A stretch of DNA of 64,000 nucleotides from Comamonadaceae bacterium (GTDB lineage: Bacteria; Pseudomonadota; Gammaproteobacteria; Burkholderiales; Burkholderiaceae_C): the NCBI GenBank assembly GCA_947478725.1, contig CANJWZ010000002.1:1-64000 (forward strand), read 5' to 3'. Positions 17,953-19,844 of this stretch are shown one piece after another (positions within the stretch are counted from its first letter, which is position 1; every line of letters begins with the position of its first letter). A model generated the notes under the pieces. It made no database searches, was not told the DNA's origin, and saw only the letters and a list, made by a program, of their open reading frames with translations. Made by a program: the position numbers and the translations under genes.

Positions 17953-19844
17953 GACAAAGCACCTTCTTCTGCGCTCAATGCACTGCGGCGCATGTTGCTA
18001 AACAGTTCGCGGCCCATACCCTGGCTGTCATTTTGGCGCAAAGCCAGCGGCATGATGTCTATCGTTCGCGCAGCCCATTGATCGGCTGCCACCAGCACGT
18101 TCAATTCTCCGGTGAGCGCATCCAGCCGAATCAGATCGCCGTCACGCACTCTGGCCAGCGGGCCGCCCGCTGCGGCTTCAGGCGACACATGAATGGCGGC
18201 TGGCACCTTGCCTGACGCGCCGCTCATGCGGCCGTCAGTCACCAGTGCCACCCGATAGCCCTTGCCTTGTAGCACCGCCAGCGGTGGCGTGAGCTTGTGC
18301 AGCTCGGGCATGCCGTTGGCCTGCGGGCCTTGCCAGCGCACCACGCAAATGACATCCGTTTCAAGCTCGCCAGCGTCAAAAGCATCGAGCAGACCCTGCT
18401 GTGAATCAAAGACGCGTGCTGGCGCTTCAATCACGTGGCGGTCATCTGGCACGCTGGACACCTTGATCACGCTGCGGCCGAGGTTACCTTGCAGCAGCTT
18501 GAGGCCACCGCTGGCGTTGAACGGTTTGGCGACGCCGCGCACAATCGATTCGTCTTTTGAATCGCCCGCATCAGCCCATGCCAGTGCCGCGCCACTCAAA
18601 TACGGTTCTCGCGTGTACTCACGAATGCCGCCAGCGCGCACCGTCAGCACATCGGCGTGCATCAAACCCGCATCCAGCAGTTCCCTGATAACCAGCCCCG
18701 TGCCGCCTGCAGCCTGAAACTGGTTCACATCAGCGCTGCCGGTGGGGTACACATGCGTCAGCGTGGGCACGACGTCTGACAAATCTGAAAAATCGTTCCA
18801 GTCGATGGTGATGCCCGCTGAATGCGCAACCGCCACCCAGTGAATCAGGTGGTTGGTAGAGCCGCCCGTAGCCAGCAGCGCGACCATCGCATTGACTATC
18901 GCGCGCTCATCAACCATGTGGCCAATCGGCGGACACTTTACCCCCGCGCTTTTCGCTGCGCGTGATGCGCTGCCCCCCGAGGGGGCTGATTTTTCCAGGG
19001 GCGGCCCGTCGAAAAATGGCGTTTGCAGGCCCAAAACGGTACGCGCTGACTCGCGCGTCAGCTCGTCCCGCAAGTCGCCACCCGGGGCAACAAAGGCTGT
19101 GCCGGGCACCTGCAGGCCCATCGCTTCGAGCAGCATCTGGTTGCTGTTGGCCGTTCCGTAAAAGGTACAAGTGCCGGGCGCGTGGTAGGACTTCATCTCA
19201 GACGCCAGCAGCTCGGCCCGCCCGACCAGACCCTGCGCGGCCAGCTCGCGGGTTTTGGCTTTTTCTTTGTTCGACAGGCCAGACGGCATCGGCCCAGCCG
19301 GCACAAACACGGTGGGCAGATGGCCAAAATGCAGCGCACCTATCAGCAGTCCCGGCACAATTTTGTCGCACACGCCCAGCAGCAAGGCAGCATCAAACAT
19401 GTCATGCGACAGCGCCACAGCAGTCGACATGGCAATCACGTCACGGCTGAACAAACTGAGCTCCATGCCCGTTGTGCCTTGCGTCACGCCGTCGCACATG
19501 GCCGGCACGCCGCCTGCGACCTGCGCGGTAGCGCCGTGCTTGCGCGCTTCTTCCTTGATCAGGTCGGGGTAGTTTTTCATTGGTGTATGCGCTGACAGCA
19601 TGTCGTTGTAGGCCGTCACGATGCCAATGTTGGGCGCGCGCTCGGCCACAATTTTGAAGCGGTCATCTAACGGGCTGCCCGCCACCGCATGTGCCAGATT
19701 GGCGCAACCCATCCGGTCGGCGCCTCTGGCGCGGGTGGCAGCTGTGTTGACCAGCGCCAGGTAGGCACTGCGCCGCTGGCGGCTGCGCTCGATGATGCGC
19801 GCTGTGATGCGGGCGACCTCAAGGTGTAAGCGTGGTTGGGTCAT
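17943..19844 (-). CDS. edd: 6-phosphogluconate dehydratase with an in-frame repeat insertion
   Basis: Dehydrates 6-phosphogluconate to KDPG using a 4Fe-4S cluster. At 633 residues it is about 30 longer than E. coli Edd. Conserved landmarks are present: [25 protein letters not shown]-like [39 protein letters not shown] and [20 protein letters not shown]. The extra length lies between TVLGLQT and [10 protein letters not shown], about residues 275-302, and reads [20 protein letters not shown] and a few more residues. This segment is encoded exactly by a dispersed palindromic repeat at 18940-19020 of 81 bases (27 codons). No stop or frameshift is introduced and the cysteines are intact, so activity is probable. 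Confidence 0.95.
18940..19020 (+). repeat. Dispersed palindromic repeat (family A) inserted in edd
   Basis: The plus strand reads ACCCCCGCGC, a hairpin TGCCCCCCGAGGGGGC, then GGGGCGGCCCGTC and AAAAATGGC. The same order with close sequence recurs before sdhE at 57984-58073, and its head recurs in kynU. It is 81 bases, a multiple of three, and is read through in edd. Confidence 0.85.

Follow-up and report, generated by a model that had tools for sequence, protein, structure and literature searches.

Can a dispersed palindromic repeat that lies inside an enzyme gene become part of the protein, and is it tolerated there? This question is raised by the edd gene in a stretch of 64,000 nucleotides from a Comamonadaceae bacterium (assembly GCA_947478725.1, contig CANJWZ010000002.1), which was analysed as a whole and is called the window in the following. 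A first-pass annotation had stated that an 81-base segment within edd is the same repeat as the one before a putative sdhE gene, that it keeps the frame while adding about 27 residues to Edd, and that a dispersed palindromic repeat has become coding here in the manner of the Rickettsia palindromic elements. The features concerned are the following:

17943..19844, minus strand: edd, 6-phosphogluconate dehydratase, 633 aa, an uninterrupted open reading frame bearing the insert
18930..19025, minus strand: altered Edd loop, residues 274-305 (QTP...VKCP, 32 residues), which replaces IKSKRYA of the sisters
18940..19020, plus strand: palindromic repeat copy of 81 nt, very probably BRE, read in antisense within edd
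57984..58073, plus strand: second copy in the window, with a stop codon (57974-57976) on one side and the putative sdhE on the other

The edd locus

The gene product matches the 6-phosphogluconate dehydratase structure 2gp4 (E = 8.3e-213), which is also the best PDB match of its AlphaFold2 fold. A profile of the repeat family finds two copies in the whole window, at 18942-19017 in edd and at 57986-58070 before the putative sdhE, and thus confirms that the two segments are the same repeat. The edd frame is open throughout, as had been stated, and the net length change in comparison to the sister is 75 nt. There is indeed extra length at this site, but it does not result from a simple addition of about 27 residues. 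Where the nearest relatives read ...TVLG(L/I)-IKSKRYA-PIG..., the window's Edd reads ...TVLGL-QTP[repeat]VKCP-PIG..., so that seven residues are exchanged for 32, with a net gain of 25. The insertion is therefore not clean, and the site does not show a clean insertion with target duplication.

The three closest Edd sequences (L078, L090 and L080) do not contain the repeat and are 96-97% identical to the window's Edd outside the loop; the counts of L090 and L078 against the window are identical, and the two may be one genome. In 150-base windows, the DNA identity to L078 and L080 amounts to 87-98% along edd and drops to 68-70% at the loop. On both sides of the insert, the edd sequence runs in parallel with that of the sister, with a DNA identity of about 94-95%. 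Outside the loop, edd is under purifying selection, as indicated by omega values of 0.076-0.088 versus the three sisters. It has to be considered that the genome is present in 79 contigs and that repeats can cause misjoins. However, an assembly misjoin at the repeat or a decaying edd pseudogene is extremely improbable: both flanks belong to edd and are co-linear with the sister, five other genomes have the same arrangement, and there is neither a stop codon nor a frameshift in a gene with an omega of about 0.08. Misassembly and pseudogene were rejected on these grounds.

An AlphaFold2 model of the window's Edd, computed with 34 relatives (pLDDT 82.1, pTM 0.87), places the insert in a low-confidence segment after helix 257-272. 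This segment, residues 275-302, is the only one of at least three residues with a pLDDT below 50. The simplest reading of the model is that the insert forms a disordered surface loop, a low pLDDT being no proof of disorder. A second variable loop exists in the Edd of L049 (G042) after the position of window residue 416, where 28 extra residues include VRPELVEG, presumably the translation of another widespread dispersed palindrome. Near that second loop, the Edd sequences of L123, L121 and L107 carry unrelated extra residues.

Copies of the repeat in the genome

When the stretch was compared with its own genome by BLAST, scoring 40 of 87 candidates yielded at least 41 matches with E ≤ 1. The covariance model R1 was built from 38 copies and comprises 80 positions; at least 84 of its matches reached E ≤ 0.001, with 150 candidates scored out of 1620. 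With dozens of matches by either method, the repeat in edd is not there by chance. Forty places in the genome were taken together with their flanking DNA, and the profile search identified 42 distinct copies in them: 22 inside genes, four near an N-terminus and 16 outside genes. A total of 26 of the 42 copies lie in a coding frame. These placements are based on our own reading of open frames and on matches to NCBIfam and Pfam families, not on annotation. The reading frame alone was the basis for placing the left side of the insert in the YheT-like protein and in rsmB, whereas the right side in the EamA gene was placed by the frame together with the sister's empty site. Internal copies were assigned to the genes edd, amgK, gcvP, recQ, fmt, icmF, cysN (two copies), a uvrA, addA, thrC, recG, rsmB and holA, and to those for a YheT-like hydrolase, an EamA transporter, a GST, a fused hydantoinase-type protein, a ligase-associated exonuclease, an acetoacetate-CoA ligase, an alpha/beta hydrolase and an AMP nucleosidase.

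Six genes, hand-picked out of the 25 with coding copies, were compared to PDB structures, and in all six the alignment is interrupted at the insert. The breaks are at 287|291 of 2gp4 for Edd (a Shewanella enzyme, where the window's Edd runs from 272 to 300), 100|103 of 1fmt for Fmt, 740|747 of 9uz6 for GcvP, 195|197 of 1jqj for HolA, 259|265 of 3v7n for ThrC and 395|396 of 4q47 for RecQ.

The second copy in the window might also be translated. An ATG at 57981, in frame with the putative sdhE, is located before this copy and another ATG follows the repeat. An N-terminal extension of the putative sdhE product through the repeat, with about 30 extra residues, is therefore possible. The window also contains a low-G+C array at 41502-41618, composed of nine-base units (TTTAAATTT-like) with nine overlapping matches.

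Four of the six frames of the repeat consensus are free of stop codons. Half of the copies in coding frame (13 of 26) are read in antisense as FSDGPPxGKxAPSGGS (F1), ten in sense as PTLxxxRxxLPPEGA (F1), with thrC included by its LLPEG, and three in a second antisense frame (PLGGQR, F0), while the fourth stop-free frame, a basic sense frame, is used by none of them.

MITEs are marked by terminal inverted repeats of 15-30 bp and a target-site duplication; the consensus of the repeat contains internal hairpins but no long terminal repeats. Covariation was examined in 38 copies with 19 named stem pairs and shuffled controls. Compensatory change was found in 59 cells of the stem pairs, whereas the shuffles gave 18.7 and sliding of the partner gave no more than 39; ten stem pairs were changed on both sides (6.1 in the shuffles). 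There was no excess of further pair types (22 versus 21.0 in the shuffles). Change is clearest in hairpin 1, with CAC/GTG versus CGC/GCG, and in hairpin 3, which has several different stem sequences. RNAalifold predicted 13 pairs; this prediction lacks the named pairs of hairpin 1 and of the outer part of hairpin 3, which rest on the structure named by hand.

Copies in other genomes and identity of the repeat

The repeat is not confined to this genome. Matches were obtained in at least 83 of 87 Polaromonas genomes (our genome included, at most ten candidates scored in each) and, in a stricter search with 15 candidates scored in each, in at least 32 of 300 Burkholderiales genomes (our genome again included). 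The genome G125, which we take to be that of Polaromonas sp. JS666, has at least 150 matches (150 of 3183 candidates scored), all of them on contig 1 of three. It contains nine pairs of adjacent copies at a step of exactly 84 nt, and a triple at 78-79 nt exists in G175. Among 30 loci of G125 that were read, copies are present in gcvP and amgK, apparently at places corresponding to those of our genome, as well as in glnE and moaE, the left side of the latter being placed by frame alone. The gcvP and amgK copies of the two genomes are identical only at the background level, which can mean re-insertion or long divergence and is thus no proof of re-entry.

Tandem copies also occur within coding sequences. 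In an MdtB-type RND permease gene (L408, G088:C28), six head-to-tail copies at a step of 84 nt, i.e. 28 codons, lie in frame at 2516-3006 and add about 168 residues, after which the MdtB family match resumes at residue 524. Two tandem in-frame copies are found at 2372-2525 in a histidine kinase gene (L413, G190:C14), just past an RIRMSLELM segment that itself follows the SHELRSP motif.

The repeat is very probably the already described BRE (Hot et al. 2011, PMC3110155), as judged by length, G+C content, tandem habit and distribution; stretches of the repeat's own sequence gave no match in the papers searched. According to the text available from that paper, BRE is a chromosomal repeat of about 90 bp (full copies 75-91 bp) with a high G+C content, 63.7-78.9% in the Bordetella copies; it occurs in Bordetella and Comamonadaceae, and its tandem copies are separated by few or no bases (PMC3110155). 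Our repeat agrees with this description in its length (81 nt in edd, 80 model positions), in its G+C content (55 of 81 bases, i.e. 67.9%, in the window's copy), in the tandem pairs and triple of G125 and G175 and in the location of all G125 matches on a single contig. The copy numbers differ: Polaromonas sp. JS666 has the most published copies, 29 (PMC3110155, available text), versus the at least 150 matches in G125. A test of the link between copies from the order and the Bordetella loci was negative, as lexA in G341 and G437 is not located beside the tandem copies of the stricter search. The available text of the Rhodoferax ferrireducens genome paper (PMC2755013) mentions CRISPR only.

If the repeat is BRE, then both the family and the occasional coding copy had already been reported. 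BRE copies are described as lying between genes as a rule, but 'some ... entirely within coding sequences', in a single sentence that, in the text available, comes without frames, genes, empty sites, a selection test or a structure (PMC3110155). Apart from this sentence, no description of BRE as a palindrome that codes for protein was found in the literature searched, which was largely open-access.

Comparison with a sister genome and selection on the copies

In the sister genome G192, of which 1.79 Mb were examined, an orthologous stretch is present for 31 of the 40 loci and is missing from the examined part for the other nine. This allowed the comparison of 33 copies: 25 are shared, seven are restricted to our genome, and of one (L010) the sister has lost half. 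The seven copies are those in edd, holA, the EamA gene, one of the two in cysN, one at the N-terminus of an abhydrolase and two non-coding ones. At coding sites, all six net length differences between the two genomes are multiples of three (75, 84, 102, 84, 96 and -27 nt), in contrast to one of five at other sites (Fisher p 0.015). The inspected sites with copies restricted to our genome have short altered flanks beside the repeat, as in edd, and no clear target duplication was seen at them by eye. One such copy (L009, 1494-1588) appears, by eye, to sit at an overlapping stop and start (ATGA) at 17997-17999 of the sister stretch L251; it parts the two signals and brings a new ATG, and both frames are kept.

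Selection was analysed in 15 genes with copies common to G192, the flanks being the coding sequence within 600 nt (L024 was left out, since it has no sister). Within the inserts there are 8.0 synonymous differences in 291 sites and 35.0 non-synonymous ones in 747 sites (dS 0.028, dN 0.048, omega 1.73). The flanks have 546.8 synonymous differences in 3743 sites and 188.2 non-synonymous ones in 11575 sites (dS 0.162, dN 0.016, omega 0.10). Inside the inserts dN and dS do not differ (p = 0.22), while in comparison to the flanks the inserts have more non-synonymous change (p = 2e-7) and less synonymous change (p = 7e-11). The omega of 1.73 together with the low dS indicates that the encoded peptide is under no visible constraint and that the DNA of the repeat changes less than synonymous sites do. 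The latter signal is exaggerated, since the search for copies started from that of the window and therefore favoured those with little divergence. It appears to be the DNA hairpins, not the peptide, that are maintained.

The hairpins might have a role in the transcripts of their host genes, on mRNA stability, as sites of translation pausing or as small RNAs, and selection on this role might keep the copies. The covariation of the stems and the low synonymous change within coding copies would fit such a role, as would the presence of BRE in the region of bprJ1 and bprJ2, two small RNAs of Bordetella (PMC3110155, available text). However, copies are found in both orientations relative to genes, and non-coding copies are similarly conserved: 5.1% of their bases differ from the sister, versus 4.0% in coding copies, while the 150-nt flanks differ at 5.6% for both kinds. 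This can be accounted for without a gene-linked role, and we consider a role in the mRNA unlikely.

Recruitment of the peptide for a function in Edd, such as regulation or the binding of a partner, which would make the insert adaptive, is less likely still. The motif GPPxGKxAPSGGS recurs among the Edd carriers described below, and the same loop seems to have been hit more than once. However, the motif is simply what the repeat encodes in this frame and turns up in unrelated proteins for that reason, and no constraint on the amino acids is visible across the 15 genes. Moreover, the sisters with a 96-97% identical Edd manage without the insert, and the model gives it no confident structure. Taken together, we regard recruitment as very unlikely.

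Recurrence in Edd of other Polaromonas

The alignment of related Edd sequences, which had been proposed in order to find those without the insert, comprises 73 rows from Polaromonas, the genus to which our genome is assigned by way of its named relatives. Sixty-seven of them are without the repeat, one of these being frameshifted at the loop, while six carry it in the same loop: the window, L061 (G190), L062 (G147), L063 (G191), L064 (G134) and L079 (G197, shortened). The genomes G130, G146, G151, G160, G164, G184, G199, G200 and G201, with partial or distant matches, are not part of these rows. No repeat in Edd was found in 29 other loci of the family set (one of them from Polaromonas) or in 80 named loci. 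A profile scan of 178 other edd loci at E ≤ 1 detected the repeat inside edd exclusively in the five other Polaromonas carriers. The weak profile match in L092 is located away from the Edd loop, and in L111 (Rhodoferax sp. TS-BS-61-7) a copy lies upstream of edd at 2306-2379. A conserved Edd domain can be rejected, since among the loci scanned the repeat inside edd is restricted to Polaromonas carriers and 2gp4 is nearly continuous at the loop. The event in edd is real and no one-off, in view of the many copies in the genome and the recurrence in other Polaromonas Edd proteins.

The six carriers might go back to a single old insertion that only a few lineages retained and that homologous recombination of the loop spread from species to species. 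All of them have the insert in the same loop, orientation and frame, and their flanking residues (xT before the insert, KC or GC before PPIG or RPIG) are common to the carriers and absent from most other sequences, as expected for an exchange of loop alleles; the drop of DNA identity to the sisters at the loop only is in line with this as well. However, on an edd tree of 72 taxa, calculated with the loop removed and without L208 (G155), whose Edd is frameshifted at the loop, the carriers require six changes, which is the maximum (mean of shuffled labels 5.8). In addition, the five full edd copies (that of L079 was too short) are hardly more similar to each other (mean identity 0.842) than to dispersed copies (0.835). 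Since random pairs of copies have an identity of 0.825, old orthologous edd copies may as well have diverged to this background. The edd copy of L062 matches two dispersed copies from the same genome at 97% identity and one from G190 at 99%, whereas its identity to other edd copies does not exceed 92%. The gain in the window's edd postdates the split from L080 (support 0.89), unless L080 and the line of L078 and L090 have both lost the repeat. As judged from these comparisons, at least two of the gains look independent. We therefore regard a single insertion as rather unlikely, and between repeated gain and exchange of loop alleles the balance leans moderately towards repeated gain.

Partial remnants of the repeat are present in L079 (217-250, in frame in Edd) and at L010 in comparison to L264. 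In both cases a part of the repeat is missing, which suggests that copies decay by internal deletion.

Relation to known in-frame palindromes

In-frame palindromes are known from Rickettsia and, as WPEs, from Wolbachia (Ogata and others; PMC3767692, PMC10969869). The repeat resembles them, as far as the available parts of these papers describe them, in being present in frame in many unrelated genes and additionally outside of genes. The likeness to the Rickettsia palindromic elements stated at the outset thus stands, in the sense that the repeat works like them. There are also differences: the Rickettsia elements are 100-150 bp long and reside in intracellular bacteria, whereas the present repeat is G+C-rich, has about 80 nt and is found in free-living betaproteobacteria. 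Furthermore, orthologs are reported to have the insert at the same locus in the work on R. japonica, whereas close sisters differ here and the Edd loop was seemingly hit repeatedly.

A second likeness exists to intragenic REPs of the GTAG and CGTC type, palindromes that are likewise located in coding regions, for instance in Opitutus terrae and in uvrA of Thioalkalivibrio (Di Nocera et al. 2013, PMC3733652, available text). Dimers or groups of these repeats encode 20-30 residues; the REPs themselves have a length of 20-40 bp and carry GTAG or CGTC tags, the GTAG ones being tied to transposase genes, whereas the Bordetella repeats were grouped among the untagged families (PMC3733652). The sole Y1_Tnp match of our genome (G000:C8) has no copy of the repeat in its 3.3-kb locus, by which a RAYT-driven REP was ruled out for this genome.

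Conclusions

Palindromes that code for protein have so far been a topic chiefly in intracellular Rickettsiales. For the repeat in edd, a tolerated selfish hairpin element with in-frame insertions, working like the Rickettsia palindromic elements, is in our view highly likely the correct explanation. A dispersed, non-autonomous hairpin repeat, very probably BRE, would have inserted in frame into edd in the lineage of the window, within the loop that follows helix 257-272. Since four of its six frames are free of stops, a copy that enters a gene and changes its length by a multiple of three would add about 25 residues of a linker that is rich in Pro, Gly and Ser and probably disordered. Where the surface loop is tolerant, the enzyme would keep working and the copy would persist, while elsewhere selection would remove it. 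The altered flanks in edd (QT..., KCP...) go beyond a simple insertion and count against this explanation, as do the lack of a clear target duplication at the inspected sites, the sole Y1_Tnp match without a copy nearby, the bias in finding the copies and the one covariation measure that does not exceed its control. The copy itself, its absence in the sisters, its frame, the coding pattern in the genome, the multiples of three, the stem covariation and the lack of visible amino-acid constraint are observed directly, whereas we infer the past mobility of the repeat and the enzyme responsible for it, the disorder in solution and the normal activity of Edd.

The finding exceeds what had been claimed for edd alone, as there is a genome-wide set of in-frame insertions of a hairpin repeat that are apparently tolerated. 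The repeat itself has very probably been named before, and the known class of in-frame palindromes gains a case from free-living bacteria. As a tentative extension, which we consider less likely than not, BRE could be a gene-compatible selfish element: its favoured Pro/Gly/Ser-rich frames would be near-harmless, loops such as that of Edd and perhaps those of GcvP and AmgK would be re-entered across species, and serial insertion, in-frame tandem growth and partial deletion would remodel conserved enzymes in free-living betaproteobacteria.

The free-living bacteria studied here carry coding palindromes in conserved genes, even in core replication genes (holA). Because empty sites are available in close relatives, the absorption of 25 residues and the repeated hits in one loop can be tested by comparison and in the laboratory. 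The results suggest that a DNA repeat which looks mobile can end up in working proteins as a floppy loop that they tolerate.
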